64,000 bases of DNA, taken from the NCBI GenBank assembly GCA_038049695.1, contig CP142454.1, positions 92,308,001 through 92,372,000 of the forward strand, written 5' to 3'. Origin of the DNA: Cinnamomum chago. Its lineage: Eukaryota; Streptophyta; Magnoliopsida; Laurales; Lauraceae. The notes beneath the pieces were generated by a model. It did not search any database. It was not told the origin of the DNA and worked only from the letters and a program-made list of their open reading frames with translations. This document shows, piece after piece, positions 2,674 to 60,500 of this stretch. The position numbers and the translations under genes were made by a program. Numbering within the stretch: the first letter of the stretch is position 1; each line of letters begins with the position of its first letter.

Positions 2674-3173
2674 TGTTAGGAATTTTGTGTATTGCAATTT
2701 GATGGATGCATTAGCATATTAGCACCATTTGAATTTTCACACTTGCATTGATTTAGAAAAACTTGAAATCTTGATTTTACATGCATTGGTTTTTAGATTT
2801 GTAAAAGCATTGAATTATGCATGTTTTGTTTTTAAACTTGGATGCAATTAGATTTGAAAAGAGTTTTATCAAATCAAGTAAGCCATTGGTTTAAAGTTTT
2901 GAATCATTTTAGGCTTTTTAAGTTTCATGAAGGTTTGAGCTCAATGTTTCTTTCTTTCATATGTTTTAACCCTAAGCTCAAATTCATTCAAGCTTTCCAA
3001 AGGTTCTTTCTTTAAAATCATTATTTTGATTTGGAGTTTTCATGACTTTAGAATTTCAGTTTTCATCATTTTTCAGTCATGAATTATTTCTTGATAAAAG
3101 TGTCTCAAAGTCCCCTGGAAGATGCCCTCAAAAGTTATAAGTTTCTAAAAAATCAGGAATTCTGGGCATGCAC

Positions 3174-3312
3174 CAGGTCGACCTGCCTGTGTGGCCGGTC
3201 GACCGGGAACACTGCGGGTCGACAGGGAGTTTTGTGCTGAAGCCTCTCCAACGGATATTTTTCTAGCCGTTGTGTGTACCAGGTCGACCCGGGGGTCATG
3301 GGGTCGACCGGG
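3174..3312. repeat. GGTCGACC palindrome cluster in NS-1 5' LTR
   Basis: Perfect palindromes CAGGTCGACCTG (3174-3185) and CCGGTCGACCGG (3195-3206) are followed by shorter or imperfect versions near 3215, 3280 and 3302. The 3' LTR (16124-16290) has one more unit, with a second GGTCGACC inside an extra stretch of about 29 bp. Palindromes of this general kind are reported for maize Sirevirus LTRs (established knowledge); their role in this plant is not shown. Confidence 0.85.
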
Positions 3313-3978
3313 CCGACTAGCCATTGGACTGGTTTTTTGGTTTAAAGCCCATTCTTTCCCCATCTTTTGAGAGGCTTGTTGGATGAACTTTTGGAACCAT
3401 TTTGGATCCTAAGAAAGGGGAATAAGGTGTTAAGGCTAGAAGGCTTTTTGGAAATCAAATGCTTGAGTTTTTAAAAGGTACATCTTACTAGTTATTTTGA
3501 TTTCCATTCAAATTGAAATCTATGCATGTTTTAATCTTTGTATTTTCATAAATGCATGATTTCTAGCTTCTTAAGAGTTGTTTAGCAAACTCAATATTAT
3601 CTTTTGTAAATTAGATTGGTTTGCAAACTCTCTTGTCTAAATCACATGTGTTCTTAGATTTTAATCTTCATACAACTTGTTTAGTTCATTTCTTCAAGTT
3701 GTTTGAATCCTTCATGTGATTAGCATTGACCTTCAATCATCATTTTCTAAGCTTTGATTTTAAAATGCATCAAGCATTCATTTAAGTGCTTCATTGTAGA
3801 ATTTGATTGAAGTAAAGCATTCATACACTTGTGCACACACTTTATCTTATCTTAGTGTATGTTTGTAATTTGAATTACACTTTCATATCAGCCTATTTAG
3901 AGGCATTTTATTTGTGCTTAAAATTATATCTCTTAGAGTGTTCTTTTGTGAAGACACCTTCTTAGAGAAACCCTTCTT

Positions 3979-4190
3979 TTGTAAAGGTTATTGCTTAGCC
4001 TAAGAAAAGCATTGTGTAAAGGTTATTGCTTAGCCTAAGAAAAGCATTGTGTAAAGGTTATTGCTTAGCCTAAGAAAAGCATTCTTGTAAAGGTTATTGC
4101 TTAGCCTAAAAAAACACATTGAGAGGTTGTTGTTTAGCCTAGAAAAACAACATTGTAAAGGTTATTGCTTAGCCTAGTGAAAAGCATAAT
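3979..4190 (+). repeat. Tandem stem-loop repeats, loop AGCCT, in NS-1 5' LTR
   Basis: Six units of about 30-36 bp each read roughly AAGGTTATTGCTTAGCCTAAG then AAAAGCATT. Each folds as TTGCTT / AAGCA around the loop AGCCT. One unit (4127-4152) has the different stem TTGTTGTTT / AAACAACA around the same loop, so both arms changed together. The fourth unit (4094-4117) has lost its right arm. Confidence 0.85.
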
Positions 4191-4443
4191 TAGTGGAAAT
4201 CCGGTGGGGTGATTGGATCACAAGCCGGTAGTGCATGTAGGCATTGAGGCCGAACCACTATAAATCTTTGTGTAGTGGTGTTTGCTTTGTAATGATTGTT
4301 TTATTAGCTTTCGCATTTTGATTGTTTATCATCACTTGTGACTAGTTTGGTTTAAGAAGTTAAAATTGGTCTATATTGGTCATATATTGTAGCTCACCCT
4401 ATTCACCCCCCCCCCTCTAGGGTTAGATCCCAGGACTTTCAAT

Positions 4444-4456
4444 TGGTATCAGAGCC
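4444..4456 (+). promoter_or_regulatory. NS-1 primer-binding site, initiator tRNA-Met type
   Basis: TGGTATCAGAGCC begins two bases after the LTR end. It is complementary to the 3' end of plant initiator tRNA-Met and is the usual start of minus-strand DNA synthesis. NS-2 has the same site at 55599-55611. Confidence 0.92.
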
Positions 4457-4541
4457 TCGTGCTCTATCTTATAGGATCAAGTGTTTGGAACTCTTGATTA
4501 GGTGTAAAAACCTAGAGTCAAAACCCTAGTTTTGTGCTTAC

Positions 4542-5994
4542 ATGAAAATCATTGGAATGGATTCCACTTCTATAGATTGTTTAGATTGTTGTGTAGATTC
4601 TTCTAGACCCCTCATTCTTCCTTCTATTAGGGATTCAAACTCTCAAACTAATGAATCTCAATGTGACATAAAAGAAGAAGAAAATGATTATAGTGAAGAT
4701 GACCTTCAACAAGCCTTTGAGGAATTATATGAATTCTCCTTAAAGCTTGAAAAGAAAAACAAAAAGTTAAGAGAAGAATCTAAAAATCTAAACAAACAAT
4801 TAGTCTCTTCAAAAGATGAACTTAGAGAGAAAGAAGAAGTGATACAATGTCTAGACTCTAAGTTCATGATCTCTTTGAATAACCTATCTAATATCAAAGA
4901 TGAACTAAATGAATTAAAGATAGGAAATGATGATCTTAAAAAGGAAAATTTAAACCTAAGAGATCTATTAAAAAGCCAAGACAAAGACTTTATCAATTTA
5001 TAATCCAAGTTGACAATTTCCATGGAAAACATGTCAAATGTTCAAAGTAAGTTAAAAACCTTAGAACTTGGATCTAATGTTGTTAATGAACTTAAACTTG
5101 AACTAAAACTTGTCAATGAAGAGCTAAGTAACTATAAGGAAATTGAAAATGATTTATTAAAAGTAAAAAATGAAAATTCAAACCTTATAACCGAAGTCAC
5201 TCAACTTGAAGGATATAAACAAAAGTATGAGTGCAAGTTTACCCAAAGTGAAGAGAGACTTGAAAAGTTATTTAAATTGGGTAAACCTCATGGAGATCGG
5301 ACGGGTCTTAGTTTTGATAAGTATACTTCACATGACCCTAATTTCACCAACACTTTTGTGAAAGGTGAGTCCTCTTTCTCTAGCACTCTTTCTCCTTTGC
5401 CCAAAACTAAATGTATTTATTGTGGCATTGAAGGGCATTTTAGGTTTGAGTGCAAACTAAGAAGAAGCCATGTGTCTAAACCCATCTTTGAACCCAAAAA
5501 AGGTAGAATCTAAATCTATGAAGGGTAAGACAATAAAAATCAAAGAAGACTCCAAAAAGATTAAAAAAGTTAAATCAATTAAAATGGAGTCTCCTAAAAT
5601 AGATTCTAAAAAGTTTAAACAAGTTAAACCAAGTATAAAAGAATCTACAAACAAGAAGCTTCTCAACCTATCTCCCTTATATCAACCCATGAAAGAACTT
5701 TTGAAGAAAGTAACAAAGTTAAATTTAAAATTCAAAAGTCAAATAAAGGGAGAATATAAGAAGAAAAGAAAAATGAACAAATCCCCTAAGAAACAAACTC
5801 ACCAACTTCAAAAGACTAATCACTAATCTAAGCTAAATTTAGTAAAATCTAAATATCATGGTGATAAGTTCAAATTGAAAATTTATCAAGTCAAATCTCC
5901 TATAGTTGGTGGGACTTCCAAACTAGATCTCAAAGATCAACCATCTCAAGACCTTAGGTGGATTCCTAAAGTTAGATACTTAGACAAACCTTAA
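4542..5994 (+). pseudogene. NS-1 gag-like protein: coiled coil plus CCHC zinc knuckle (broken)
   Basis: The protein would start at the ATG at 4542, about 85 bases after the PBS, and run to TAA at 5992-5994 after IPKVRYLDKP. Residues about 35-150 are Lys/Glu/Leu-rich heptads typical of a coiled coil. Then come the motif GKPHGDRTG and a CCHC knuckle CIYCGIEGHFRFEC (C-X2-C-X4-H-X4-C), followed by a very Lys-rich tail. In Sireviruses the knuckle part of gag binds RNA in the particle. The large N-terminal gag domain of copia elements is missing in both NS copies, so the family gag is short by design. This copy is broken by a TAA at 5001-5003 and a frameshift near 5500. No protease or pol follows. 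Function as a particle-associated RNA-binding protein is inferred. Confidence 0.82.
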
Positions 5995-6846
5995 GGCCTA
6001 GAACCTTCTTGACCAACCTATCCTTTATAGTTAAATCATATTGTTGGTCATGTTAGATTTGCATTTTGTTCTTTCATAGTTATATTTCTTAAAATGCAAT
6101 GTTTATTTATTATCAATTGATTTTGTCTTCATGTACATCTCTAGTTACATTTCATGGTTTTCAAAATCATTTGATTATGATTTCATCATGTTAGATTTGC
6201 TTTTTGCTCACATTTAGTTATATGACTTGCATTGCATTTCTTTACATGATCAATTGATTGTGATTTCAAAAGCTTTCATAGCTAGATTAGTCATGATCAA
6301 TTGTTGTTGCAAAATCATTTGTGTAGATGTCATAGTAAGATTATTTGAACAAATGATTTGAATAAATTTAAGTTTTCCATGGTTTTCTAAAGTTATACTT
6401 TAATATGGAAAATCATTGTTTTGAAAAATCAACTTGTATGTGTTTCAAATAAGTTATAACTTTTAAAATACAATGTTGAAAATTGATCTTCAAATTCATT
6501 CTTTTTATGCTCATTGTTGAATTTTGTTTATTGAAATGATTTGAAGATTGTATAATTGGAAATGCTCTAAAACATCATTAGTTATATTCATCAAAGCATG
6601 TTCCATGATTCTCATTTCCTTTTACTTTTGGTTACATCATCTTAGAAATGGAAATGAATGTTGTTTGCATCTTTGCTTATTTGTTTACATTCTTTTTATA
6701 TGCAAATGTCAATTGGTTCCATGTATGGTTGTGATCTTAGTTATATTTGTAGAAACCATACTAGAACTCAAATCCATCCTCTATGCCTTCTAGTCATTTC
6801 TTTTTGGATGGTTATGATGTTGATTCATGTATATTCTCTAAGTGAT
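5995..6846 (+). repeat. NS-1 non-coding interior, part 1: run of stem-loops with AGTTATAT-like loops
   Basis: No credible ORF. Inverted pairs follow one another about every 60 bp. Examples are TGACCAAC 6010-6017 / GTTGGTCA 6043-6050; TTGCATTTT 6059-6067 / AAAATGCAA 6091-6099; 6118-6133 / 6153-6169; CAATTGAT 6251-6258 / ATCAATTG 6296-6303; AAATCATTTGT 6312-6322 / ACAAATGATTT 6349-6359; TTTTCCAT 6373-6380 / ATGGAAAA 6405-6412; 6429-6439 / 6468-6479; 6486-6500 / 6535-6548; 6558-6566 / 6594-6604; 6612-6619 / 6650-6657; 6716-6730 / 6753-6767; CCATCC 6774-6779 / GGATGG 6806-6811. Most loops hold AGTTATAT or a near form (AGTTACAT, AGTTAAAT, AGTCATTT). The series continues at 10922-11226 and 14377-15043 and is kept in NS-2. 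Role unknown. Confidence 0.8.
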
Positions 6847-7359
6847 TGTGAGAACCCGACCCCTAATCTCTTGGATTAGTGTTGTTTTATTGGTGGATTA
6901 GTTTCTTTTAGTGGGATTAGTATTTGTTGGGTTGAGTTTGTGAGCTAGAATGGTTTTTCTCTAGTTTTGGGGAATTTTGAGGGCCCTTGTGATTAGTGGG
7001 ACCCTTTGGGGGTTCTTTTAGTGACTTTGCGCGTGATTGGGAGGTTATTCGAAATTCCTGATAATTCTTGTTTTAGCCTCATTTGACTTATTTTGTTAAC
7101 CTCTACAACTTTCGTATTCACTCCGTACCCATTCGAAGCTCCGAAAATCAGTTTTTCCAGCCCGGAGGGCAAAACAGTGTTTTCACACCAAATCTGGACC
7201 CAAATTTCGAGATCCCAGAACCATGCCAAAGTTATACTTTTTGAAAACTAGATTTTATGAGAAACATTTTTCTCTTCTTCGTCGATCGCATCCGAGGCCC
7301 ACAAATAGATGTTTTACCCTTGGCAAATTTTAAGTGTGGTGGGGCCCATACCCACCCAT

Positions 7360-7367
7360 TATAAAAT
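7360..7367 (+). promoter_or_regulatory. Putative TATA box of TEK-3 LTR
   Basis: TATAAAAT lies about 100 bases downstream of the CTTTTTG...CTTCTTCGTCGA block that is conserved in all Tekay LTRs of this window. The position suits a U3/R promoter, but no transcript evidence is available. Confidence 0.45.
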
Positions 7368-8395
7368 GACTCCACTCACTCTTTCTCCCTCATTTTCCAC
7401 TCCCCATCGGCTGCAACTGCCAGCTACAATGCCAGCAGCCCCTCTTCTTCATTTCTTCCATTTCTTCTTGCTTTCTCCTCTCATTCTTGGAAGAAACTCT
7501 TGCCATTTGGAATCATAACTATGCCATCTTCTTCCCCATCTCTTTAGCTTCCCATGGATGTGATTCTTGTGCAAAACCAAGGTAGCCCCTATTGCAAGCT
7601 TCTTCTTGTTCATTCATGGCCTTAGAGGTAAAGACTCCTTTCCATTTTCCTTGTATGTGCTATGGCTCTCCCTTAGGTTCTATTTCCTAGCTTGGCTTGA
7701 GCCCATTCCTTGTCTTTCATTGTTTGACCCATTTTAGGGTTTGTTTTGGGGTTTTTGTAGAGATTGTTGATCTTGAGCTTGAGAGGTGATTAGGAGCTTG
7801 ATTTACTAGATTGGAACCCAAGGCAAGTGGATGAATGGATGGTTTGAATGTTATAAAGTTTTATGAGAAAAACCTAAGTCTTATTACTTGTTCTTGATAA
7901 TGTGATATATGTTTCCACATATGCTTCTTGTCGTATTTCTATTGATTTCGAAAATGCATATTAATGGTTGTTTCCCTCTTGTTAATCTCTTGGAAATGTA
8001 TGCATTTCATTTGGTCAAGGTTTGCTCATATGGTTTTATAATGAATGGGTTGGTTTTCCATTCATGTTTATGTTTACTAGCTTGCATTGATTTGAAATTG
8101 ATGCTCATTTGAAGAGTTTTGCTAAATCATCTTTTGTTAAGGAAATGTGGATTAATAGTCTTGATTTATCTCTAGATTCTTGGCTCAAATGGACCCTTGT
8201 GTATATTGGGGATTCTTCCCTTTGTTTAATGTGAAATGAGAAGAAAGAGGTGTTTGGATTTAATGTTCATTGAAGTTTTGATGGGAGTTTTATTGTAGTT
8301 AGGATGTTGTTGAAGTAAGGAAAAACTCAATTTGTATATGTGTTGGAAGGAAAGGAAAAAGGGGAGAAAAATTCCCGGACCTGCTACACGCCCAG

Positions 8396-8430
8396 GTCCG
8401 ATCGATCGGACATGCAGGCCGATCGATCGG
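8396..8430. repeat. GATCGATC palindrome pair in TEK-3 LTR
   Basis: GTCCGATCGATCGGAC (8396-8411) is a perfect 16 bp palindrome, and CCGATCGATCGG (8419-8430) a perfect 12 bp one. The reversed copy b has the corresponding cluster at 40671-40746. Confidence 0.9.
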
Positions 8431-9739
8431 ACTGTCTTTAACAGTGAAATTAGATATTGTTTTTTTTGGAAACATTTGGGCTTTCTATGAGTCCTAGGGG
8501 TATATACCTTAGTGTTAAGACCAATTATACCCTAATCTAAGGTCTCTAAGACTAGGGAACTAAAAGAAAAGAATGGTGATGATCTAGGCACTAATTCTTG
8601 GTTTTAGGTGGGACCCTGACTACCCTTTTTGGACTGTTTGGACCATGTGTGAGAATGTCTTGAGCCGACACGCCTCACGGTTGGTTCGGTGGCATCGAAG
8701 TTCAATCCATTTCAATCTTGAACGGGATGGAACGACGCGATATCTTCTTTATATCTAAACACAAGTCTTTCCCTTGGTTATCGCGAATTCTATTCCTTTC
8801 GGTGACTGAATAGGTTGCTCGATGTTTCCAGATTAATGTCATGCCTAGGATGGACCGTTTATAATCTTGATTTTTGCTATTGTAGCATCTAGTACTACCC
8901 ATAAGCTCATTTTAAGTTTTGAAAATAGTAAAAGTGCATAAGGAGCCCGGAATGTCTTCAAACTCAAGGAGTACCAAGTAAATATTATAATCGACATACG
9001 GGACCCCTATTCACTTAAATGGATCTTGAAACCTATATTTTACCCGAAATTGTAATAGTTCATTGTTTCACCTCATTTCCAAGATTTGCATTACATGACT
9101 TGTTTTCCTGAAAGCATTGAAGTTACTCTAGTAACAGTTATTCGTCCCGAAGTGCATTGCACCACATGATATGTCAGTGTGCCCTTGAGCACCCCCGTCT
9201 TGCCCATTTGATTATGTATTTGTACTTGGTTTACTTGCATATGTCTCGATTGTATTTGACCTATGAGTCGGCACCACTAAGCTTGGATAACCTTGTTGAT
9301 CTGATCCACTGACTTGGAGATCCCCCTCTTGTCCCTCCAGCTACAGTTTGGATCCCGCTACCGGGTCATTACCATGGTCTTGTCCCGATACCGCAGATTG
9401 CTACTGTGGTCCCCGATGCCCGGCTCGCTACCGTGGTCATGTATAGTATATGTATATGTATATGTATTTATATGAGATCCCCTGTTTCTCCTCACCTTGA
9501 GTGACTGAGATCAGGGCCTAGTTATTGCTCTATCGCTTTAGTGATAGAGGACTTAGCTTCGTGTGGTCGCCATCTTGCCAGTTCCCGATTCCTTGGATAC
9601 CCGACATGTTTTATATTGCTTACTTGTTTTTCGATAAACGATTCGTTTCCTTTATGAAAGTTGTTATTTAAACAAATGTTAATATTCTCCAATGTAAATT
9701 CAGTTATTACTATATTGCTTCTCGTTCTTTGTACATATA

Positions 9740-10330
9740 CATGTTTTAAATGGATGCCGGTTGGGTGAATACCCATGCTTTTACATATGTTTCAAACGAT
9801 CAATGGTTTTGCTAGATTTATATGATTACACATGTTTTAAATGAATACCCGAATTGTGAAATATCCATGCTTTGAAATATGTTTTAAATGACACGTGTTT
9901 TGTAAGATTCCTGTGTTTATACCTGTTTTAAATGATTACCCGAGGTATTAAATATCCATGCCTTGAACTATGTTTAAATGAACACTAGTTTTGCCAGATT
10001 TCTTTGGTTACACCGGTTTTAAATGAACACCCGGTTTGTTAAATATCCGTATTTTCACATATGTTTCAAATGGACATTGGTTTTGCCAGATTGTTATGAA
10101 TACCTGGTTTGTTGTATACTTATGTTTTTACCTAAGTCTCAAATGAACGTTTGTTTTGTCAAACCACTATATTTATACATGCTTTAGACGAACACCCGAT
10201 TGTCAAATATCTATGTTTATAGATGATGTAAATGAACACATGTTTTATTAGATATTCATGCTTTACCCATGCTTGAAACGAATACATGTTTTGCCCGAGA
10301 CCCACGATTTTGCACCCGTTTAATTATATG
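9740..10330 (+). repeat. Diverged short tandem repeats in TEK-3 LTR
   Basis: About ten diverged units of roughly 60 bp recur, each containing a form of ATGTTTTAAATGAACACC, then a word like CGGTTTGTTAAATATCC and TATGTTT. The reversed copy b has the matching array at about 38690-39260. The shorter TEK-2 LTRs lack it, which explains part of the 1 kb size difference. Confidence 0.7.
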
Positions 10331-10921
10331 CAGCATTTGATCGAATAGCATGATTTATCATATGTTTTATTCTTCAGTATATTTATGATCCTTTCATCCA
10401 CCGCCAGACCGTCGTGTCCGACCCACTACTTTTGGTACTCAGGTCCAGACTTCTTCGTCCCGAGATGAGTGCTTTTGTTGGCTGTGGAGCCATGTTTTGC
10501 AGGTTGTTTTGTCGGCTATGTCATGTAGACATTGAGCTTGACATCGGAGCTACGTCATATTTGGGGTAGTGATTATAGCTTATTGTTGTATGGCTTTTAT
10601 TAGCCTTTTCTTGGGATTCTTAATTAATGTACATTGATAATTGTAACTTGAACGTATATGGGAATGTAATATCCTGTTACTGTCAGCTCTGTATTTTGTT
10701 GTGATGGTTTACTCCAGTCTGATATAATTCTTGATATATTAGCTATATGCTAGAGGTTGAGTGTGACGCGGAATCCGATGGCCACGGACTCTGGGTCGCA
10801 ACGCCACGAAAACTTCCGCAAAATATTCAGAATGTGTTGTCTTCACACACACGAGCAAAATATTTATGCTAATAATCCCATTCCCGTCCCCGAGGTTCCG
10901 GTTCGGGGGCGTGACAGTGAT

Positions 10922-11226
10922 GTCATCCTTATACATGTTTCAACTTCATAAGTAGTGTTCTTGATCATATGAAACTCTTTGAAATCCATTCCTCGTATAT
11001 CTATATGTTTGATGGATATCTTAGTTGTTGAATTCATATGATTTTGATACTTTGAAAATTGCATGCTTTACCAAGTCATATCCTTTTGCATTGCAATTTA
11101 TCTTGTTCATCACTATGCTCAATAGTTATATCTTTAAAAGTGATGAATATCCTTTTATGATGCTTGATGGGATTTTGTGTTTGTCACATCCTTGCTTTTA
11201 ATCATGTTGTCATATTCAATTGGTTT
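10922..11226 (+). repeat. NS-1 non-coding interior, part 2: stem-loop run
   Basis: No ORF of substance. Stem-loops continue: GTTTCA / TGAAAC around 10939-10974; ATCCAT / ATGGAT around 10987-11018; AAATTGCATG / CATTGCAATTT around 11055-11100 with AGTCATAT in the loop; and TTCATCACT 11106-11114 / AGTGATGAA 11139-11147 with AGTTATAT in the loop. GGTTT at 11222-11226 is the left copy of the next insertion's duplication. Confidence 0.75.
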
Positions 11227-14200
11227 TGTCGCGACCCCGGACCGGGAATCCCAATCCGGGATCGGGACCATTAGTGTGTGATGATTATTCAAGAGGATTA
11301 CCTACATCCTCAAGATAATCTTATTTAATTTCCCACAGGTGTCCGCGGTGAGGATATCAAAACCTTGCATGGATATTTCTTTTTAATGCGGAAGCGTGTA
11401 GCAAATCAAATGGTTAGACTATCTCTAGTCATGCAAGCATTTACATCAATATCAAACTGTATCAGAATGAGCAATGATATATAGCAATGTTTCCCAAAAG
11501 TTGTTAAAGTTAGACAAGTTATCATTTAGTTACAATCCCCAAAATTAGAGGCCAACAAAGGCCAATATTACAAAATAATAACCCAAAGAATAGTTAACAA
11601 GTCCTTCCCAAAATGTTACGCCTCTTGGCAACCCGATGTCTACATGACATCGTCAGCACGCCACTCAACTAGAGGCTGCAGCTCACCTACCGCCTCCTCC
11701 GGCTCCTCCTCAAGGAAACCGGCAACGGGACCTGAGTACCAAAGCAAAGGATCAGACACGACGGTCTGGCAAGAGAATGACAAGATACAACAACAATAAT
11801 AGAGGAAATCTCTTGAAAAGCATATAAATCTGTTTAAGCAAGAACTCTCATAAAGCAGGTAAATCATTTGCTATAAAACAAGTAAACAAGATAAAACATA
11901 TGAGGTAACCAAGGAATCGGGAATAACAAGGTGGCAATCACATAAAGCTAAGTCCTCTGTCACTAAAGTGACAACAGTATCACGGGACGTTGATCTCAGT
12001 CACACAAGGTGAGGAGAAACAACGTATACATATATACAATATAACTATACGGGAACAGGACCACGGTAGCGAACCGGGTATCGGGACGGGGCCACGGTGG
12101 TAAACCGGGCATCGGGATCCAAACTGCAGCTGGCGGGACGGGAGAGGGATTTCCAAGTCAGTGGATCAGACTGACATGGTATCCAAGCTTAGTGATGCCG
12201 ACTCATAGGATAAAACCAATCGAGACATATGCAAGTAAATCAAGTACAGTAGATAAACGGGTAAAACGGGGTGCTCAAGGGCACACTATCATTTCATGTC
12301 GGGCAATGCATTTCGGGACAATTAACTGTTACTAATGTAACTCCAATGCTTTCGGGAAAACAAGTCATGTAATACAAGTCTTGGAAACGAGGTGAAATAA
12401 CGAGTTATAACACATTTCGGGTAAAATACTAATTTCAAAATCTATTTAAGTGAATAGGGGTCCCGTATGTCTATTGTAGTCCTTACTTGGTACTCCGTGA
12501 GTTTGAAGACATTCCGGGCTCCTTATTCACTTTTATGATTTTTTCAAAGTTTCGGATGACATCTTTGTGATATGGTTTCTTTCTCGGATGGCATCAACAA
12601 TGCCTAGTGAATCCCTTTCGATTGACAAAGCTCAACGCTCGAACGAACCGGAGAGTTCGTTCGAGCGGGGAGCTTTTCGAAATCTGGGAAATTTCGGTTA
12701 CCTGGCGGTTAGCTGGCGGTTAGCCGCCGATGCATTCGGCGGTTAGCCGCTGGGTAACCGTGGAGCTGACCGAATTTCAGGTGAGAATTCTGATGCTCTC
12801 GGGAAAAGGAACCGTGATTGTGCGGTTGGCTGGCGGTTAGCCGCCGATGGGTTCGGCGGTTAGCCGCTGGATAACCGTGAGGCTGACCGCGTTTTCAGGT
12901 GGAAAATGATGCTCTCTGGAAAAGTCACCGCGGTGCGCGGTTAGCTGGCGGTTAGCCGCCGATGCATTCGGCGGTTAGCCGCTGGCTAACCGTGAGCTGA
13001 CCGCCAGTTACGAAATTGCTCACTGAGTCCAGTTTTGAGTCATTTTCCTCCTCAAAACCATCTTCCTCACATCCACAAGGTCCTTACAATAACATTGAGC
13101 TAATAGTTCCTCCAATGCCTCTCTTTATACTTCTCCAAATCCTCCTTAAGAGTTCTCTCTATCACCTCTTCCATGCCAAATCCAATGCAAGAATAGGAAG
13201 GAAAACAAACCATTCCACAAACATTCATCTAAGCTATCACAAGGACAATAAATGCTTTACCAACATGCTTATAAAACAATGAATGAGGCTATTAAGATAT
13301 CTTATGAGCATTTATTCCAAAACAAAACACATTAATGATAATATGGAAAATCCATAAATACTAAGCCAAACCATTTCAACTTAAAAACATTCAAGCATTC
13401 ACTTGCCTCTAATCCAAGCTAGCTGAAACAAGTCTTTGATCACCTCTATTGCTCAAAGCCAAGCTACAATCAAAAATCCCCAAAACAACCCTAAAATGGG
13501 TTACACCAAGCTTGAAAATGAAAGAGCTTCCAATAATGCACATGTAGAATCTCAATGACTAGAGGAACACTAATCTAAGAGATGGAAATGATCACTTACT
13601 TGGATGACCTTCAAATGAAGAGGACTAGTTCAAAGAAGATCTCAATGTTGATGAATCCCTCCACAAATAGTATCAATGGAAAGCTTGTGAGATGAGGGAG
13701 TGATTGGTGAGTTCCAATGCTTGATCTATGAACTATTGATATGGCTTGGAGATGAAGAAGCAAGAAGAAGAAGAAGAAGCAAGGGAAACCCTAGACTCAA
13801 ATGTGTGCTGGAGCAAGGAAGAGTGAAATGAGAAATGGAGGGTTGGGTTCTCCTTTGTAAACAAATGAAGCTTGGGTCCCACAACTCAAGGTACTACATG
13901 GACTGAAATCATCTAATTCGGGACCTCGGATGAATTCGACGAAGAAGGAAGAAATGTTCGTCGAAATATCTACTTTCCAAAAAGTCTATGTTTCGCGGGT
14001 TTCGGGAATATCGAGCTTTGGGTACAGACTTGGTGTGCAAATGACTGTTTTGCCCTCTAGGCTATGAAATCGGTTTTCGGGGTCTCGAATGAATACGGGA
14101 TCAACATGAAAGTTGTTGAGATCTACAAGATGCATGCAACGGGCCAAAAACACAATTCACAACAAATCGGGAAATTCCTCGAGAAAATACAAAGCCGAAA

Positions 14201-14376
14201 AGGGAACCCCCAAAGGGCCCCACAAGTTACCAAAGCAGATCAAGACGATCGAATCAGCCCAAAACCAAAATCAAGGCTAATCCAAACCCATCTTAACCAG
14301 GAATCACTAATCAAGCTTAGCACTAACACGCAACTTAATTAGCACTAATCGGGATCACTCGGGTCGGGGTCTTACA
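11227..14376 (-). mobile_element. TEK-2-family solo LTR (3150 bp), reversed
   Basis: On the plus strand it starts TGTCGCGACCCCGG and ends GGGGTCTTACA; read on the minus strand it is TGTAAGACCCC...GGTCGCGACA. It is flanked by GGTTT at 11222-11226 and 14377-14381. It aligns with the TEK-2 LTRs at 43772-46714 and 51407 onward but carries a different palindrome cassette (12697-13010). There is no internal domain, so it is a recombination remnant. Confidence 0.9.
12697..13010. repeat. Triplicated GCGGTTAGCCGC palindrome cassette
   Basis: Three blocks (about 12697-12765, 12817-12890 and 12930-13000) each hold GGCGGTTAGCCGCC, a spacer such as GATGCATTC, and GGCGGTTAGCCGC, so the block folds on itself around the spacer. 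The intervening text (CTGACCG... and ATGCTCTCGGGAAAAG) is also repeated. The equivalent place in the TEK-2 LTRs near 45430 has CCGATCGATCGG words instead. Confidence 0.85.
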
Positions 14377-15043
14377 GGTTTCATTTGGTATAATTTTCCA
14401 TTGATTTCATACCCAATTGATGTCTTATCTTGTGTATGTGATAGACCTTGTATACATTGGATTGAACTTGATAGTTATATGTTTTCATTCCATGTCACAT
14501 TCCATTAGCATCTTAATTTTCATGATTGCCTCCTATCTTGCTCATATAGGTATATCTCATGACCACCATGCTTATGTTTTAATAATCTTGGTTGGTTATT
14601 AGTTGAGGTTGGCTTCATGTTTGAATTTCATTTCACTCATCTTGTACTTGATAGTCATATTTATTGATTGAATGAAATGATTTCAAAAACTTTCATAGCA
14701 TATGTTCTTCATAGTTAAATTGATTGATGCTATGTTTAACAAACCCCATTTCATCATGGATAGCTCTAATTTGGATTTATCTTAATAGTTATATTCTTTA
14801 TAACTCCAGTTTAGAGTGATTGTTTTAATAGAATTATCCTTGCATCTCAATTGGTATTCTTTGTTTTTCCAATTGGTATCCATGATTGCTTTTCTCATTG
14901 ACCTTGCTTTCTTTTGGTAATTTGATCATAGTTAAACATGTCATATCCTTTCCTTGAAGTTGACCCTCATTTGGTTAAACCATCTTCTTCTTGAACCAAA
15001 TAGTTATATCTTTGTCAAAAGTTTGACAAGAGGAGAGAATGGA
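14377..15043 (+). repeat. NS-1 non-coding interior, part 3: stem-loop run
   Basis: No coding sequence recognised. Clear pairs are CATAGCAT 14694-14701 / ATGCTATG 14727-14734 (loop with ATAGTTAAAT) and the 17-base arms 14764-14780 / 14800-14816 (loop AATAGTTATATTC). Weaker pairs occur around 14450-14500, 14560-14600, 14620-14690 and 14965-15000. NS-2 keeps the same series (58220-58870). Confidence 0.75.
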
Positions 15044-15623
15044 TTGAGGGGGAGTGTAAACCTTCATAGGAAGTATTAGTTTTGATCAAATTCACCCTTA
15101 GATTGGCTTTGAACCCTTAGAGACTACTTCCATACATGATAACCTGTTATGTATTTCATTTTCAATTTCTTTTGTTAACAGGTGCTACTAAAATGTATTT
15201 TCCTTGTTTCATGTGTGTAGATACCTTTGCAATTTAATGTCAAAGGGGGAGAGAGCATTCAAGTTCTCTAAAGGGGAAGAGAATGTCCAAGATTCCTAAG
15301 GGGAGATATTGTAGGATCTTCTGCAGGGGGCGAGAATGCATATCTTGCCAAAGGGAGAGAGGCATGGTCAAAGGGGGGAGAGGTGAAAGAAGAAAGCTTG
15401 GGAACTAAAGAAGATGCTTGGCTATAGAGAGAAAGAAGAAGAGAAAGCTTCAAGAATGATCAAGCTCCAAGCATCAAGAAGAATGAAGAAAAAGCCCAAG
15501 AGCCCAAGCTAAGAGAAGAAGCATCCAAGAGATTTCAAGACTTGTCCAGCTTAGGGGGAGCTGAAGACTTGGTGTGTTAATTCGGTGTTGAGTAAGTTGC
15601 CATCAACTTGCCAAGGGGGAGAT
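15044..15623 (+). promoter_or_regulatory. NS-1 3' region with repeated polypurine tracts; functional PPT at 15612-15623
   Basis: The tract directly before the 3' LTR is AAGGGGGAGAT. Similar purine runs precede it near 15048, 15244, 15271, 15297, 15325, 15350, 15371 and 15551. A series of PPT-like tracts upstream of the 3' LTR is a known Sirevirus feature. The words AACAGGTGCTACTAA (about 15178-15192) and TGTCAAAGGGGGAGAG (15238-15253) recur in SIR-A on the minus strand (about 29008-29080), tying the families together. The PPT primes plus-strand DNA synthesis. Confidence 0.85.
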
Positions 15624-17378
15624 TGTTAGGAATTTTGTGTATTGCAATTTGATGGATGCATTAGCATATTAGCACCATTTGAATTTTCACACTTGCATTG
15701 ATTTAGAAAAACCTGAAATCTTGATTTTACATGCATTGGTTTTTAGATTTGTAAAAGTATTGAATTATGCATGTTTTGTTTTTAAACTTGGATGCAATTA
15801 GATTTGCAAAGAGTTTTATCAAATCAAGTAAGCCATTGGTTTAAAGTTTTGAATCATTTTAGGCTTTTTAAGTTTCATGAAGGTTTGAGCTCAATGTTTC
15901 TTTCTTTCATATGTTTTAACCCTAAGCTCAAATTCATTCAAGCTTTCCAAAGGTTCTTTCTTTAAAATCATTATTTTGATTTGGAGTTTTCATGACTTTA
16001 GAATTTCAGTTTTCATCATTTTTCAGTCATGAATTCTTGCTTGATAAAAGTGTCTCAAAGTCCCCTGGAAGATGCCCTCAAAAGTTATAAGTTTCTAAAA
16101 AATCAGGAATTCTGGGCATGCACCAGGTCGACCTGCCTGTGTGGCCGGTCGACCTGGCTAAGGGACCTGGTCGACCGGGAACACTGCGGGTCGACAGGGA
16201 GTTTTGTCCTGAAGCCTCTCCAACGGATATTTTTCTAGCCGTTGTGTGTACCAGGTTGACCCGGGGGTCATGGGGTCAACCGGGCCGACTAGCCGTTGGA
16301 CTGTTTTTTGGTTTAAAGTCCATTCTTTTCCCATCTTTTGAGAGGCTTGTTGGATGAACTTTTGGAACCATTTTGGATCCTAAGAAAGGGGAATGAGGTA
16401 TTAAGGCTAGAAGGCTTTTTGGAAATCAAATGCTTGAGTTTTTAAAAGGTACATCTTACTAGTTATTTTGATTTCCATTCAAATTGAAATCTATGCATGT
16501 TTAAATCTTTGTATTTTCATAAATGCATGATTTCTAGCTTCTTAAGAGTTGTTTAGCAAACTCAATATTATCTTTTGTAAATTAGATTGGTTTGCAAACT
16601 CTCTTGTCTAAATCACATGTGTTCTTAGATTTTAATCTTCATACAACTTGTTTAGTTCATTTCTTCAAGTTGTTTGAATCCTTCATGTGATTAGCATTTA
16701 CCTTCAATCATCATTTTCTAAGCTTTGATTTTAAAATGCATCAAGCATTCATTTAAGTGCTTCATTGTAGAATTTGATTGAAGTAAAGCATTCATACACT
16801 TGTGCACACACTTTAGCTTATCTTAGTGTATGTTTGTAATTTGAATTACACTTTCATATCAGCCTATTTAGAGGCATTTTATTTGTTCTTAAAATTGTAC
16901 CTCTTAGAGTGTTCTTTTGTGAAGACACCTTCTTAGAGAAACCCTTCTTTTGTAAAGGTTATTGCTTAGCCTAAGAAAAGCATTGTGTAAAGGTTATTTC
17001 TTAGCCTAAGAAAAGCATCTTGTAAAGGTTATTGCTTAGCCTAGAAAAGCACATTGAGAGGTTGTTGTTTAGCCTAGAAAAACAACATTGTAAAGGTTAT
17101 TGCTTAGCCTAGTGAAAAGCATAATTAGTGGAAATCCGGTAGGGTGATTGGTTCACAAGCCGGTAGTGGATGTAGGCATTGAGGCCTAACCACTATAAAT
17201 CTTTGTGTAGTGGTGTTTGCTTTGTGGTGATTGTTTTATTAGCTTCCGCATTTTGATTGTTTATCATCACCTGTGACTAGTTTAGTTTAACAAGTTAAAA
17301 TTGGTCTATATTGGTCACATATTGTTTCTCACCCTATTCACCCCCCCCCCCCTCTTGGGTTAGATCCCAGGACTTTCA
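15624..17378 (+). repeat. NS-1 3' LTR (1755 bp)
   Basis: It matches the 5' LTR at 2674-4441. It has one more GGTCGACC unit (16124-16290) and fewer stem-loop repeats (about 16950-17125). Two palindromes that are intact in the 5' LTR appear here as GGTTGACC and GGTCAACC, the expected products of deamination at a methylated CpG. Confidence 0.95.
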
Positions 17379-23074: not shown

Positions 23075-23579
23075 ATGCTTCCATCCCTTTGAAGGGTTTC
23101 TTGTCAGCAAAGACTCGACGTACTTCTGAATTTTTATCAATGTATTTGATACATTGATGTGACGTCGAAGGGACTACATAGTTTTCATGAATCCATGGCC
23201 TTCCGAGGAGCAAATTGTAGGAAGTTTCGGTATCAACGGCGTAGACCATGACCTGAGATTTCATGTCTCCAATCTGACATGGAATAACTATCCTACCAAT
23301 AGCCTTTTGTGTTTCTCTATTGTATGCTGATATGCTGAGTTTTGTATAGATGAGCTTGCTAGTTGGGATTCCCAAATATTTTAAGCCCCGCAGTGGCACG
23401 AGGTTAATTGCTGATCCAGGGTCAATTTGCATTCTTGGTAATTCAATTGCACCGATATATCCTGTGAAATATAATGGCCGATTGTGCTTTACATCCCCGG
23501 GTAACATGTCATCCTTCGTGAAACTGATTGTAGCAGCCATAGCTGCTCTTAAATTGAAGCATTCTTTACATTTCGCTTT
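23075..23579 (-). pseudogene. TAT-2 aspartic protease
   Basis: On the minus strand the frame holds MLPGDVKHNRPLYFTGYIG, the active-site segment MQIDPGSAINLVPL and the closing YNLLLGRPWIHENYVVPS, so this copy retains the end that TAT-1 has lost. It continues to DKKPFKGMEA and then runs into the foldback at 23074. RT and later domains are absent on this side, so TAT-2 is truncated here. The product would be the retropepsin of a Tat gag-pol polyprotein. Confidence 0.85.
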
Positions 23580-24609
23580 TTACTTTACTTGTACTTGGTG
23601 AACATGAGATGCATATAGGTCTGGGTTCATAAGAGCTACTGCAGCAGCTTTTCGAATGTCTGGAGACAGTCTCAACATGTCATGCATGCTTATACGTGCG
23701 GGGATGCGCGCTAGATGTTCAAGCAAATCAAATCTAAAGGGCTCCTGAAGACTAGGCAAACCACCATTCTTGACATTTCTTTCTGTAGGCTTTGTAGCCT
23801 TGTCTTGGTTAACATTTGCATCATAATTTTTATGGTAATCTAGCCCAGAGCGAGTCCCTTTGCCTACCTCCTGTACCTCAGGAAAACATATGGAAATCTC
23901 TTCGCTATCTGCTGTTGCAGTTTCCGAAGATTCAGAGGATGTCAAATTGGATGTTGATGAACTCTCTGCTTTCTCTTCGTCATCATTTTTCTCTTCATCA
24001 AAAATTTCATAGTCGATCCCAACCATATTACACGGCCAATATAATCCTTCGACATCCTCATCCGCATCCCATGGGGTATCATTATCCCATGTTAAGGCTT
24101 CAATTTCTTGGGGGGTCCTGGGTCCTCCTGCAAAACACCATGGAATTGGGTCTAGAGGATTGAGGGGCCCAACTGGTCTAGGCATGTGGCTCATTGCATG
24201 AATGATCCTTTTTGCTTTGATTTCTCTTCTAGCCACATCATCATGTGCCAATATTTCATCTTCCTCCGACACATATTCGTAAGATCTTATGTTTTCTTGA
24301 TTGGATGAGTAAAAAATCCACACATCAGAGTCTGAATCTGAACCATCAGCATCATATCCATCAAGTGCGAGAGAATCATCACATACATCTGAGGACTTGT
24401 CCAGTTCATCAATCCTATCAATATCTAGATTTTCATCGGCTACTTCCCCCATGATAATTGTAGGAAGATCTTTTCTTTGCCATTCTAGAGTCAAATTCCA
24501 TATGGATGCAGTATAAATGACAATTTTCACTATGCCTTCAATCCATCTCCTAATATCATCATCATCAAGCAATTCATTGTCATCATTTGGGTCGGTTGAC
24601 AAACTCGAG
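23580..24609 (-). pseudogene. TAT-2 acidic linker region (counterpart of 1-1056)
   Basis: A 340-codon open frame on the minus strand starts STDPNDDNELLDDDDIRRW and is collinear with the plus-strand TAT-1 frame at 51-1040, most residues being identical. It has Asp/Ser-rich clusters and the NLTSSESSETATADSEE run. It reads through the place where TAT-1 has a TAG. It lies between the gag zinc-finger-like part and the protease. No enzymatic motif is visible. Confidence 0.75.
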
Positions 24610-25391
24610 GGTTCTGAAGGGTCACTATCATTCTCTATCGATGTGAGGTCGGGGATAAAGTATAGCTCATCATGGTTTCCTAGAGTAAAAATATGTTGTC
24701 TGGTTGAATCTTAACTTAATTCATCTGAACTTTCGGAAGAAATCACGCCATCTCTATATCCCCATCTAAGGCCATAATTGCCATCACCTTGATCCAGCTC
24801 TTTTTTCAACTCTACCAGTGAGAGACAGTTGCATGAGAGTATATCATCTTTTAACTCACTTAATTCATCTTTCTGCTTTTGGTTTTCTAAAGACAACAAG
24901 AGATCAAGTGGCAAGAAGTCCTTGAGAGTAAATGGAACTCAAGGCTCTTGTGTTAACAAATCTACTGGGGTGACAACCTCTTTTGATTTACTAGTCTTTT
25001 TCTTGTTATTTGGCCTACGTCTTTTCTTTTGTTTTCTTGCCCCCGTAGCATTTCTCATAGGATAGTTGTCATTCCAGAAGGGATTTGACGTTGCAACAGA
25101 GCGTGATTTGCTTCTTACTGTCTCCCACCCTTCTTCTGACAAGATATCTGGATGGACCCACATCATCACACCATTTGGCATTTCTACTGGAACTAATCCA
25201 TCCCTACTTTCCAATGGGTTTACCAAGCGAAACTCGACATCTCCCTCTTCTTCTTGCACAGTGGGAATTCTAACTGGTTCTTTGAAACTTCCAAAGTGAA
25301 CAGACACCAAGTTAGTTGTCACCTTCTTGTCTTCTTTAGCCAAGGTGATGATCCCATTGTCAAGTAACTCCTGGACCTTATTCTTAAAGAC
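24610..25391 (-). pseudogene. TAT-2 gag-protease spacer
   Basis: The open pieces at 24939-25343 (AKEDKKVTTNLVSVHFGS, MPNGVMMWVHPDILSEEGW and a Lys/Arg-rich KKRRRPNNKKKTSKS stretch) and 24711-24914 follow on from the zinc-finger-like segment. They match the order seen in Tat gag proteins. The Lys-rich run could bind nucleic acid. Several stops separate the pieces, so no intact product is expected. Confidence 0.65.
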
Positions 25392-53910: not shown

Positions 53911-54536
53911 TGTTAGGGATTTTGTAATTTGCAATTTGATGGATGCATTTGCACTTTAGCATCATTTGATTTACACACACTTGCATTGTTTTAGAAAACC
54001 TTGAAATCTAGTTTTATACATGCATAGCTTTTAAGATTTGGAAAAGTATTTGTTTTATGCATGTTTTGGTTCAAAACTTGGATGCATTGGTTTTATATTC
54101 CAAACTCTTTTGGAAAATCATCTTGTGAATTTAGGTTTGAGCTTTGCATACATTCATCACAAAAAGAACCATTTGTGTATGCAAATTTCACTTGAAAAGA
54201 GTTTTTACAAATCAAGCTAGCCTATGGTTTTAAAGTTTTCAAATCCTTTTAGGCTTTGTGTGTTTCATGTTTTTAAACGATTTAAAACATGTTTTTAAGC
54301 TTGATTTAGTGGCCAAAAGGTCCCCCAAAGAAAAACCTTCAAATATGCAAAAGTTGCATTTTTTGCAAAAAGGGGTGTCCCGGCAGTGTCGCCGGTCGAC
54401 CGAGACAACTGGAGGTAAATTTTACAGTTTCTGAACTGAAACCTCCAACGGTCAGAAATCTGCCCGTTATGCCTTCCCGGTCGACCGAGACCCCTTTGCC
54501 GGTCGACCGAGGACTAGCCGTTGGACACTTTTTGGC

Positions 54537-54544
54537 TATAAAAT
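54537..54544 (+). promoter_or_regulatory. Putative TATA box of NS-2 5' LTR
   Basis: TATAAAAT in TTTTTGGCTATAAAATCC lies about 30 bases after the last GGTCGACC word, so the palindromes sit in the upstream promoter (U3). The same arrangement recurs at 62321-62328 in the 3' LTR and as TATAAATA at 59719-59726 in NS-solo. Confidence 0.6.
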
Positions 54545-55159
54545 CCATTCTTTTCCAACCTTCTTTGGTGCTTGAACTATGAACCTTTGAGACCATTTTG
54601 GAGCCAAAGAAAGGGGAAGAAGTTGGAAAGGCTAGAGGGCCATTTGGAAATCAAATGCTTGACTTTTCATAAGGTACACATTACTAGTATTTTGATTTCC
54701 ATTAAAATGAAATCCATGCATGCCTAAATCTTTGTTTTTCACTTATGCATGATTTCAAGAGTTGTTTTGCAAACTCATTATCTTCATTGGTATATTAGAA
54801 TGGTTTGCAATCACTCTCACCTAAATCACATGTGTTCTTAGACTTTTATATTCATACAACATGTTTTAGATCATTTCTTCAAGTTGTGTGAATCTTTCAT
54901 GTGATTAGTATTTTTCTCTTCAATCATCATTTTATAAGCTTTGATTTTAAAATGCATCATGCATTCATTTAAGAGCTTCATTGTTAAAATAGATTGAAGT
55001 AGAGCATTCATACACTTGTGCACACACTTTAACTTAATTGAGTGTATGTTTGTTATTTGTATTAAACTTTCATATTAGCCTAGCCAAGAGGCAATTTCAT
55101 ATGAGCTTAAATTGTAATCTCTTAGAGTGATCTTTTGTAAAGACACTTTCTTAGAGAAA

Positions 55160-55345
55160 GCTTTATTTGTAAAGGTTATTGCTTAGCCTAAGAAAAGCAT
55201 TGTATAAGGTTATTGCTTAGCCTAAGAAAAGCATATTGTAAGGTTATTGCTTAGCCTAAGAAAAGCATCTTGTAAGGTTGTTGTTTAGCCTTTGAAAAGC
55301 AACATTGTAGAGGTTATTGCTTAGCCTTTGAAAAAGCATAAATAG
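55160..55345 (+). repeat. AGCCT stem-loop repeats in NS-2 5' LTR
   Basis: Five units. Most have stem TTGCTT / AAGCA; the fourth (about 55276-55310) reads GTTGTTGTTTAGCCTTTG then AAAAGCAAC, pairing with one G-T wobble. The 3' LTR has four units (about 62955-63090). Confidence 0.85.
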
Positions 55346-55598
55346 TGGAAATCCGGTGGGGTGATTGGATCACAAGCCGGTAGTGGATGTAGGCACGTTG
55401 GCCGAACCACTATAAATATTGTGTTGTGGTGATTGCTATGTGGTGATTGATTCTGTTTAGCTTTCGCATATTGATTGATCATTCATCACTTATGACTAGT
55501 TTTAGTTAAGAATTAAAATTGGTCTTAATTAGTCATAATTGTAGCTCACCCTATTCACCCCCCCCCCTCTAGGGTTAGGATCCTCGTGGACTTTCAAT

Positions 55599-55611
55599 TG
55601 GTATCAGAGCC
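55599..55611 (+). promoter_or_regulatory. NS-2 primer-binding site, initiator tRNA-Met type
   Basis: TGGTATCAGAGCC lies two bases after the LTR end, identical to NS-1. Confidence 0.92.
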
Positions 55612-55696
55612 AAGTGCTCTATCCCTTAGGATCAAGTGTTTGGAACTCTTGATTAGGTGTAAAAACCTAGAGTTAAAACCCTAGAGTTGTCCTTAT

Positions 55697-59182: not shown

Positions 59183-59885
59183 TGTTAGGGTTTTTATAGA
59201 TTGCAATTTGATGGATGCATTATCATTCAAGCATCATTTGATTCACACACATTTGCATTGATTTAGAAATCTTGAAATCTTGTTTTATTCATGCATGGTT
59301 TTTAAGAGTTGCAAAAGTATTGATTTATGCATGATTTGGTTTTAAATCTTGGATGCATTTGTTTTAGAAAAGAGTTTTCAAGAAATCAAGCAAGCCTTTG
59401 TTTTAAAAGTTTTGAATCTTTTTAGGCTTTTTATGTCATGTTTTAAAAACCATTAGAATCTTTAAAACATGTTTTCCAAGCTTGATTTAGTGGCCAAAAG
59501 GTCCCCCAAAGAAAAACCTTCAAATATGCAAAAGTTGCATTTTTTGCAAAAAGGGGGGAGTCCCGGCAGTGTCGCCGGTCGACCGAGACAACTGGAGGTA
59601 AAATCTGCAGTTTCTGAACTGAAACCTCCAACGGTCAGAAATCTGACTGTTGTGCCTTCCCGGTCGACCGAGACCTCTTTGCCGGTCGACCGAGGACTAG
59701 CCGTTGGCAACTTTTTGCTATAAATATGAGTTCTTTCCCTTGCCAAAAGTTGGGAATTTTAAGCCCCTCCTTGAGAGGTATTGAGGCATATCAAAAGGGA
59801 AAAGAACCAAGGGATGAAGGGGATGATTAGGAAAGCTAAAGCTTGGATTAATGAAGTTAAACCACCAAGTAGGCTCTTCCTTCCT

Positions 59886-60500
59886 TAATCATATGTTTTC
59901 ATGCTTTTGTTTTATTTTTGGTAAATCATTTCTAGCATGTTAAACTATGTTTGTGTTGTGTCCTTAACATATTTTATGTTTTGAGTTGATTTATTGTTTT
60001 GGATACAACACCATATGATTCAATCCAAGTAGTACTTAACTTTGGTAAATCTAAGTAGATCATGTTAATGAAAGAACCTTTGAAATCATATGTAACATGA
60101 TCCATATACTTGGTTGAATCTTTGGTTGTTGTTTTCCATCATAAGAACATCTCTTTCAAAACTAACTTATGTTTTGGATTCAACTTCTTTACAAATCATA
60201 TGTTTTCATGTTTTGTTTTATCATTGGTAAATCTTGTAACATGTTAACCTATGATGTGTTGTATCCTTAGCATGTGTTATATTTTGAATAGATCTATTGT
60301 TTTGGATACATCACCATTGATTCATCAAAGTAGTACTTTATCTTTGGTAAATCTAAGTAGATCATGTTAATGAAATATGTAACATGATTCATATACTTTG
60401 TTGAATCATTGGTTGTTGTTTTTCCATCATAAGAAAATCTCTCTCAAATGTATCTTATGTTTTGGATCCAACATCATTACAAATCATATGTGTATTATTG
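59886..60500 (+). repeat. Approximately 300 bp tandem repeat inside NS-solo
   Basis: The segment starting AATCATATGTTTTCATG (59887) recurs at 60194 and, in part, at 60481. The units share TTGGTAAATC, ATGTTTTGA, TTGTTTTGGATACA, AAGTAGTACTT and AGTAGATCATGTTAATGAA. This accounts for most of the extra length over the NS-2 LTR. Confidence 0.8.

Follow-up and report, generated by a model that had tools for sequence, protein, structure and literature searches.

To our knowledge, how helper particles choose elements that encode no protein is an open question in plants. Among the described systems closest to the locus considered here are the TR-GAG elements, which possess long terminal repeats (LTRs) and an encoded Gag domain and are devoid of pol, and the large retrotransposon derivatives (LARDs), reportedly set out by Kalendar et al. 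in 2004. A further group is formed by the Sireviruses, which are characterized by a terminal polypurine tract (PPT) AGGGGGAG, an AT/TG attachment site and an average of four PPT copies (Bousios et al. 2010, PMC2829016); an array such as that described below is not mentioned in the excerpt of that paper. Sources cited by PMC number are represented here by excerpts, to which the statements drawn from them are confined. The locus in question is a window of 64,000 nucleotides (the whole stretch analysed) of Cinnamomum chago (Lauraceae), corresponding to positions 92,308,001 to 92,372,000 on the forward strand of contig CP142454.1 in assembly GCA_038049695.1 (1.06 Gb, 14 contigs). It harbours two LTR elements, NS-1 and NS-2, whose interior, after a truncated open reading frame (ORF) with a zinc knuckle, continues as non-coding, AT-rich DNA that extends over about 1.8 kb and holds a row of hairpins, and a third family in the same genome, NS-3, carries the array without this ORF. 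The row of hairpins is real and partly conserved as structure, and it is probably a working part of the element RNA.

The hairpin array and its loop word

The array is continuous in NS-2 and divided into three segments in NS-1, as follows.

5995 to 6846, plus strand: NS-1 array, first segment, homologous to the start of the NS-2 array, with motif hairpins near 6029, 6078, 6391, 6580 and 6739
10917 to 11226, plus strand: NS-1 array, second segment, with motif hairpins at 11074 and 11124 (in the limited-geometry test, 11124 only)
14377 to 15042, plus strand: NS-1 array, third segment, with motif hairpins at 14653, 14713 and 14787
57091 to 58895, plus strand: NS-2 array, unbroken

A sequence-only reading of the window had placed the row at coordinates that hold in both elements and had estimated about 20 units, in agreement with the 19 hairpins of NS-1 (10, 2, and 7 in the three segments) and the 18 of NS-2 obtained with a simple finder at the chosen threshold. 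It had also given one unit about every 60-100 bp; the motif sites of NS-2 lie at irregular distances of 50-291 bp. Dinucleotide shuffles gave 11.7 hairpins for NS-2 and 15.3 for the NS-3 array, in which 24 are present; none of 300 shuffles reached the observed number in either case, and the excess is only about 1.5-fold.

The loop word is enriched far more strongly. In the form AGT[TC]A[TCA]AT, it occurs 11 times in the NS-2 array and 14 times in the NS-3 array, against 0.37 and 0.46 expected from shuffles, while it is absent from the three LTRs compared and found twice in the NS-2 gag region. Among 7-mers, AGTTATA shows the highest enrichment in the array, with 8 occurrences in NS-2 (0.15 expected) and 9 in NS-3 (0.24 expected). 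When AGTTATAT with at most one mismatch is counted, the NS-2 array contains 16 words on the sense strand and one on the minus strand, the latter without a stem.

Word and stem were evaluated jointly by counting the sites of AGTTATAT (at most one mismatch) enclosed by a stem with a score of at least 7.5 that leaves 5-14 nt ahead of the word and 2-9 nt behind it, a geometry chosen after the unrestricted comparison of motif sites with random positions had been seen. The word lies in such a loop at 9 of 16 sites in NS-1 and 8 of 16 in NS-2, and at 9 of 18, 8 of 17, and 10 of 18 sites in the NS-3 copies L071, L067, and L075, respectively, whereas flank-shuffled controls gave means of 0.9-1.1, and none of 300 reached the observed number in any of the five arrays. 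Thus, the shuffled sequences rich in stems with a shared loop word that the sequence-only reading had named as evidence to the contrary did not appear, and its constant loop word stands for part of the row: about half of the hairpins combine a variable stem with the constant loop, the other half being without the word. With unrestricted geometry, stems at motif sites are stronger than those at random array positions in NS1_b (P 0.03), NS1_c (P 0.002), and NS-3 (P 0.009).

The word lies 6-13 nt past the 5' arm, and its distance from the 3' arm is narrow, 21 of the 26 stems having a gap of 4-7 nt (searched range 2-9). The flanks of different units are unrelated, with a similarity of 0.27-0.30 against 0.30-0.31 from composition. 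In 24 of the 47 copies introduced below, the word is predicted to be unpaired with a value of 0.62, against 0.50 for other AT-rich 8-mers. A stem accompanies 5 of 48 words elsewhere in the window (on both strands of the NS-2 LTR, the two guest LTRs, and 17500-53800) and 3 of 5 words in the NS gag regions (4550-5994 and 55690-57090).

Retention of the hairpins and conservation of pairing

To follow single units, 47 distinct NS-1/NS-2 copies that are 88-99% identical were retained from 60 loci, after removal of 5 partial or split ones and 8 near-duplicates. With one base of shift allowed, the stem is kept in at least 44 of the 47 copies at 8 of the 16 motif sites of NS-2, in 39 copies at one site, and in 17-18 at two. 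The units best retained, together with the two hairpins counted for covariation, are given below, all on the plus strand.

57107 to 57146, plus strand: unit GACCAAC-(AGTTAAAT)-GTTGGTC, stem in 44 of 47 copies
57203 to 57276, plus strand: long hairpin with loop AGTTACAC, two-sided change at 57205:57274 from A-U to G-C in NS-3
57393 to 57443, plus strand: unit with AGTAATAT at 57417, 47 of 47 copies
57456 to 57494, plus strand: unit TTTTCCAT-(AGTTATAT)-ATGGAAAA, 46 of 47 copies
57567 to 57631, plus strand: hairpin without the loop word, two-sided changes at 57568:57630, 57570:57628, and 57581:57618
57803 to 57841, plus strand: unit GTATGGTT-(AGTTATAT)-AACCATAC, 47 of 47 NS-1/NS-2 copies
58109 to 58154, plus strand: unit TGTTCATCACT-(AGTTATAT)-AGTGATGAATA, 47 of 47 copies
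58467 to 58537, plus strand: unit with AGTAATAT/AGTCATAT at 58502, 46 of 47 copies
58543 to 58586, plus strand: unit ACATAGCAT-(AGTAATAT)-ATGCTATGT, 44 of 47 copies
58608 to 58667, plus strand: unit with AGTTATAC at 58636 and 20-nt arms, 44 of 47 copies

Comparison between families relied on 18 loci found with a sequence pattern, six of which (L061, L067, L068, L070, L075, and L076) served as NS-3 rows, and on five further NS-3 copies taken out of 40 listed places. L071-L073 duplicate L070, with L071 used for NS-3 anatomy; L062-L066, L069, and L074 resemble NS-1/NS-2 copies or mosaics and were unused except for the deletion in L065; in L077 the DNA preceding the array part is unrelated, and L078 gave no match. 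In L065, L068, and L061, runs of hairpin units corresponding to 57277-57745 are missing, the deletion edges of L065 and L068 lying at or near hairpin edges; hairpin units may come and go as modules.

Of the 270 cells examined for the hairpin at 57567-57631, which come from the 18 distinct ones among 24 sequences, 97.4% are paired. Two-sided change is seen in 3 of its 15 pairs, amounting to 21 cells against 9.2 in shuffles (none of 500 reached this) and at most 3 when the pairing is slid. The long hairpin at 57203-57276 has 11 cells with two-sided change, including a switch from U-A to A-U in two NS-3 copies, where shuffles give 3.0 (again none of 500 reached the observed number) and slid pairing gives 2 or fewer, and one inner pair is lost in 9 of 9 NS-3 rows; the second hairpin alignment comprised 22 of the 24 listed sequences (without L045 and L056). 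The stem at 57640-57687 persists by a shift of register, other stems of the array are invariant, and some pairs are lost. When between-family substitutions were placed at random in hairpins with at least three differences, pairing proved resistant (p<=0.05) in 22 of 41 tests in the array, 26 of 114 in LTRs, and 15 of 57 in gag, a result by which the array stands apart from both controls. Covariation over all pairs of the array, compared with slid pairs, is modest and partly equalled by the LTR and gag controls. Taken together, the aligned copies provide moderate evidence that selection probably maintains pairing in part of the array. Stems decaying without compensation, which according to the sequence-only reading would speak against it, are thus part of a mixed picture: compensation preserves some stems, others show no change, have moved in register, or have disappeared, and under a tree-based null gag does equally well.

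Several results weigh against reading the array as a selected structure built around the word. Hairpins are likewise in excess in NS-2 gag (13 against 6.3 shuffled, none of 300 reaching this) and in LTRs (14 against 11.3, 18 against 12.9, and 20 against 14.9, reached by 42, 5, and 8 of 300), and because LTRs and gag also exceed their shuffles, hairpin number alone was discarded as evidence. With unrestricted geometry, motif sites are not clearly better than random positions in NS-2 (P 0.19) and NS1_a (P 0.22), and in NS1_c the word is unpaired at 0.59 against 0.58 for AT-rich 8-mers. By a looser pattern, the word is carried by 10 of 19 hairpins in NS-1 and 7 of 18 in NS-2, and for 5 of the 16 motif sites of NS-2, strong stems occur in no more than 3 of 47 copies. 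In 5 of the 6 NS-3 copies, the unit at 57803-57841 has the arms and lacks the word, these copies having come from a pattern that favoured altered loops at this very unit. Counted by pairs instead of cells, two-sided change amounts to 3 against 2.6 shuffled at 57567-57631 (336 of 500 reach it) and to 2 against 0.8 at 57203-57276 (66 of 500), and one of the two hairpins shows fewer pair types than its shuffles. The 41 array substitution tests share hairpins and copies, and their gag control covers NS-1 versus NS-2 only. Extra covariation relative to slid pairs is also present in LTRs and gag, one LTR comparison giving 21 against 4-8. Finally, alifold z scores under a tree-based null are 13.7 for gag against 6.3, 10.0, and 11.1 for parts of the array, and under a rate-preserving null 5.7 against 1.6-2.3, so that conservation of folding within NS-1/NS-2 is not specific to the array. 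A tree-based z of 18 from the first run with NS-3, from which L061 and L068 were excluded, was not relied on, the gag control being equally strong.

Elements carrying the array

NS-1 and NS-2, both non-autonomous LTR elements, have ends of the Sirevirus type (Ty1/copia). Their parts, and those of the LTRs inserted into them, are as follows.

2674 to 17378, plus strand: NS-1 element, LTRs at 2674-4441 and 15624-17378, 5-bp duplication CTAAT (LTR BLAST and flanks)
6847 to 10916, no strand assigned: guest solo LTR within the NS-1 array, 5-bp duplication GTGAT (direct reading), absent from NS-2
11227 to 14376, no strand assigned: second guest solo LTR in the NS-1 array, 5-bp duplication GGTTT (direct reading)
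15043 to 15623, plus strand: NS-1 linker with repeated GGGGGAG PPT-like motifs, its terminal AGGGGGAGAT adjoining TGTTAGG of the 3' LTR
53911 to 63344, plus strand: NS-2 element, LTRs at 53911-55596 and 61673-63344, 5-bp duplication CATCT
55599 to 55610, plus strand: NS-2 primer-binding site (PBS) TGGTATCAGAGC (direct reading)
55993 to 57090, plus strand: gag-like ORF, open part of 365 aa, ending directly before the NS-2 array
59183 to 61384, plus strand: NS-3 solo LTR inside the NS-2 linker, duplication TATCT

The LTRs of NS-1 differ by 36 mismatches and 5 gap openings per 1794 aligned columns (BLAST), and those of NS-2 by 9 mismatches and 3 gap openings per 1709; the PBS of NS-2 is presumably of the iMet type. 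Over 2198 columns, the solo LTR at 59183-61384 shares 94% identity with the LTR of L079, a gag-less NS-3 element. NS-3 surfaced by chance, when a pattern whose spacer was 2 bases longer than in the window copies fished out divergent copies. Its LTR-plus-interior unit measures 5.2 kb, with a PBS at the start of the interior and the remainder largely array; the longest ORF is 81 aa (in the 3032-bp locus L071). Relative to NS-1/NS-2, the NS-3 array is 71-80% identical in its first part and 85-89% over the rest. An extra stretch of about 350 nt (approximately 1080-1450 of L070, compared with 57750-57790 of the window) adds further hairpins, one of which consists of a CATACC arm, a AGTTATAT loop, and a GGTATG arm, and is absent from the aligned NS-1/NS-2 copies.

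The gag-like ORF of NS-2 contains a CCHC knuckle, a basic tail, and a stretch that resembles a coiled coil by eye. Against Pfam, zinc-knuckle models scored 17.1 bits with a cut-off of 20.8, and all other matches were weaker and likewise below the cut-off. Seven homologues were found in a set of 5.8 billion proteins, the longest of 521 aa; P0001 (521 aa) and P0003 (504 aa) are without a Pfam annotation. A partial, close homologue labelled Streptomyces plicatus (P0006; 75% identity over 55% of the query) most likely stems from plant DNA that was included in a bacterial assembly. Our reading of the sequence is that the ORF may represent the knuckle-bearing half of Gag, lacking a recognisable capsid domain, which we take to correspond to the Sirevirus region just upstream of the protease. 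There is no further plus-strand ORF of at least 80 aa in 55300-59200, none of at least 170 aa farther along NS-2, and no pol-type ORF among those listed for the element. An autonomous helper was not found either; RVT_2 is common in the genome (16,772 first-look candidates, 150 of them scored), with none of the matches linked to NS LTRs.

Throughout the genome, a 34-mer from the array has 5,595 matches and a 32-mer from the gag zinc knuckle 2,726 (both with at most 3 mismatches; 0 for the reversed controls), which suggests that gag-less copies are common, although the two probes may differ in conservation. Some copies form tandems with shared LTRs: among the first 100 places listed, nine matches follow one another at 5,208-bp steps in C1:60545232-60586896, with a tenth 4,954 bp on. 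Head-to-tail arrays of LTR elements were observed at C1:60545232-60591850, C3:50636777-50668085, and C5:21564560-21635415, including NS-3 copies at steps of about 5,218 bp in 7 places and Copia reverse transcriptase (RT) at steps of about 5,450 bp in 14 places; such arrays are either real or a habit of the assembly. Scans of viral contigs and genome contigs revealed no relatives outside the C. chago genome, and 66 viral-contig stretches retrieved with a too weak pattern were taken as chance matches and left unused. Apart from the NS elements, the window contains long inverted repeats (1-1426 and 23196-24622) that are 95-96% alike, with an acidic ORF on each side.

Possible function of the array

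The array would best be explained as a cis-acting RNA scaffold that presents repeated loop sites to a protein acting in trans, possibly for packaging, an explanation that we hold to be evenly poised between right and wrong. Each stem would only display its loop and would be free to vary in sequence while pairing holds; the repeated word (approximately AGTHAHAT) would be the recognition site for a protein supplied in trans, and the 8-10 well-formed sites per RNA would permit multivalent binding. A site for a trans-acting factor is favoured because the word is mostly confined to one strand, the stems need only pair, and the RNAs occur with and without the ORF. An RNA scaffold, with packaging, dimerisation, or the capture of gag or RT from a partner as candidate uses, had already been proposed in the sequence-only reading; a conserved scaffold of this kind is supported by the same observations, together with the unrelated sequences of stems that nevertheless each pair and the two-sided changes between families, and the outcome on stem decay is mixed.

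Such a scaffold would most likely serve to bring the element RNA selectively into the particles of a partner, by assembly or packaging, a proposal made because of the analogy with dispersed packaging signals (PMC6281560). A contrary analogy is Ty1, in which the 5' 580 nt contain the packaging determinants and the interior can be shortened by up to 5 kb (PMC4974528). More specific, and on balance doubtful, is the idea by analogy that these elements are Sirevirus parasites that swapped their genes for 8-10 loop sites winning the helper's Gag for their own RNA; if true, capture of helper Gag would explain several thousand copies without pol, some without any ORF. Dimerisation via the loops looks weak, as AGUUAUAU is self-complementary over just 4 bases.

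Of the competing explanations, the one that survives best, though it is still unlikely, regards the array as a structural spacer of a LARD-like RNA, protecting against decay, spacing cis-elements, or setting particle length, with the word a relic of the common origin of the units. LARDs and terminal-repeat retrotransposons in miniature (TRIMs) have been described with conserved RNA structure (PMC7215508), the word is missing from about half of the hairpins, and unit number is not fixed, given that whole unit stretches are absent from L065 and L068. However, a relic origin might have left related arms, yet the similarity of the arms is at the level of chance, and the distance between word and 3' arm is narrow (4-7 nt in 21 of 26 stems).

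An improbable alternative is that mutation, not selection, is responsible, with RT switching templates at hairpins and thereby making and losing inverted repeats in AT-rich non-coding DNA. The hairpin excess shared by LTRs and gag would be expected from such a process, and so would the deletion edges of L065 and L068, which, as judged from BLAST and alignment edges, fall at or near hairpin edges. It leaves unexplained why one word recurs in many loops, mostly on one strand and at about 30 times its shuffled frequency, and why compensation is seen between families.

RNA silencing, in which the hairpins would yield small RNAs or decoy Dicer-like enzymes, is very unlikely, even though in maize transposable elements microRNA-like structures are common and a higher diversity of small RNAs has been mapped to them (PMC10760457). 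The stems of the array are mostly 7-20 bp long and mismatched, with large loops, and within 57091-58900 none of the Rfam families attains its gathering score. Usual small-RNA precursors have longer stems, and we know of no role for a constant loop word in silencing. Least probable of all is a role in RNA processing, with U-rich loops carrying sites that act in export, suppress premature polyadenylation, or control translation of the upstream ORF, since the array, although sense-strand, U-rich, and directly after the ORF in NS-1/NS-2, is also present in NS-3 without the ORF, and we know of no plant signal matching the word (searched in Rfam only).

The candidate site is compact, a stem of any sequence that carries a single loop word, and thousands of copies of it are spread over families that have the gag-like ORF and families that do not. 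Because it is compact, repeated, and abundant, probing, pull-down, and comparison across species are possible, and stem plus word constitutes a searchable signature for such elements.

Comparison with known systems

Among the open-licence papers listed, no array with a constant loop word was found, and the sequence-only reading knew of no described plant retrotransposon of such a layout. Like the TR-GAG elements, NS-1 and NS-2 have LTRs and a gag-like ORF, with no pol found. In contrast to TR-GAGs, which are smaller than NS-1/NS-2, they have an ORF without a recognisable capsid domain and a structured non-coding interior of 1.8 kb. With LARDs, the NS families share long LTRs, a conserved non-coding interior, and high copy number. 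Conserved RNA structure, another LARD trait, may be present as well, several hairpins being conserved or compensated, although the tree-based null does not separate array from gag. The absence of coding capacity typical of LARDs applies to NS-3 (L071) but not to NS-1/NS-2, which have the gag-like ORF. What sets them apart from LARDs is a hairpin that recurs with a single loop word on stems of unrelated sequence, the Sirevirus-type ends, and the existence of sister families with a gag-like ORF.

The likeness to Sireviruses lies in the ends. In NS-1 and NS-2, the terminal AGGGGGAGAT is followed by TGTTAGG, and likewise in NS-3 (L079), so that both the terminal PPT AGGGGGAG and the AT/TG junction are present. 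Multiple PPTs are seen as GGGGGAG at 58901, 59097, 59148, 61603, and 61664 in NS-2, the last being the terminal one, and as seven matches of the looser [AG]GGGGA[GA] in 15048-15615 of NS-1. All three families have a poly-C run near the 3' end of the LTR (direct reading), the place of the poly-C integrase signal in Sireviruses, and the PBS TGGTATCAGAGC and the leader fit the published description as excerpted (PMC2829016). Candidate counterparts of the repeated palindromic CGG..CCG boxes of Sirevirus LTRs, CGGTCGACCG, were seen in the NS-3 LTR. Unlike Sireviruses, the NS elements have no pol that could be found, and the interior consists of a truncated gag-like ORF plus array (NS-1/NS-2) or of array alone (NS-3).

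The dispersed packaging signals of single-stranded RNA viruses offer the remaining comparison. The NS elements differ in that they are not viruses, that the word sits in large AU-rich loops, and that the signals are known here from sequence alone; in common with the viral signals, they have many hairpins, predicted in the present case, that share a motif within one RNA (Twarock et al. 2018, PMC6281560).

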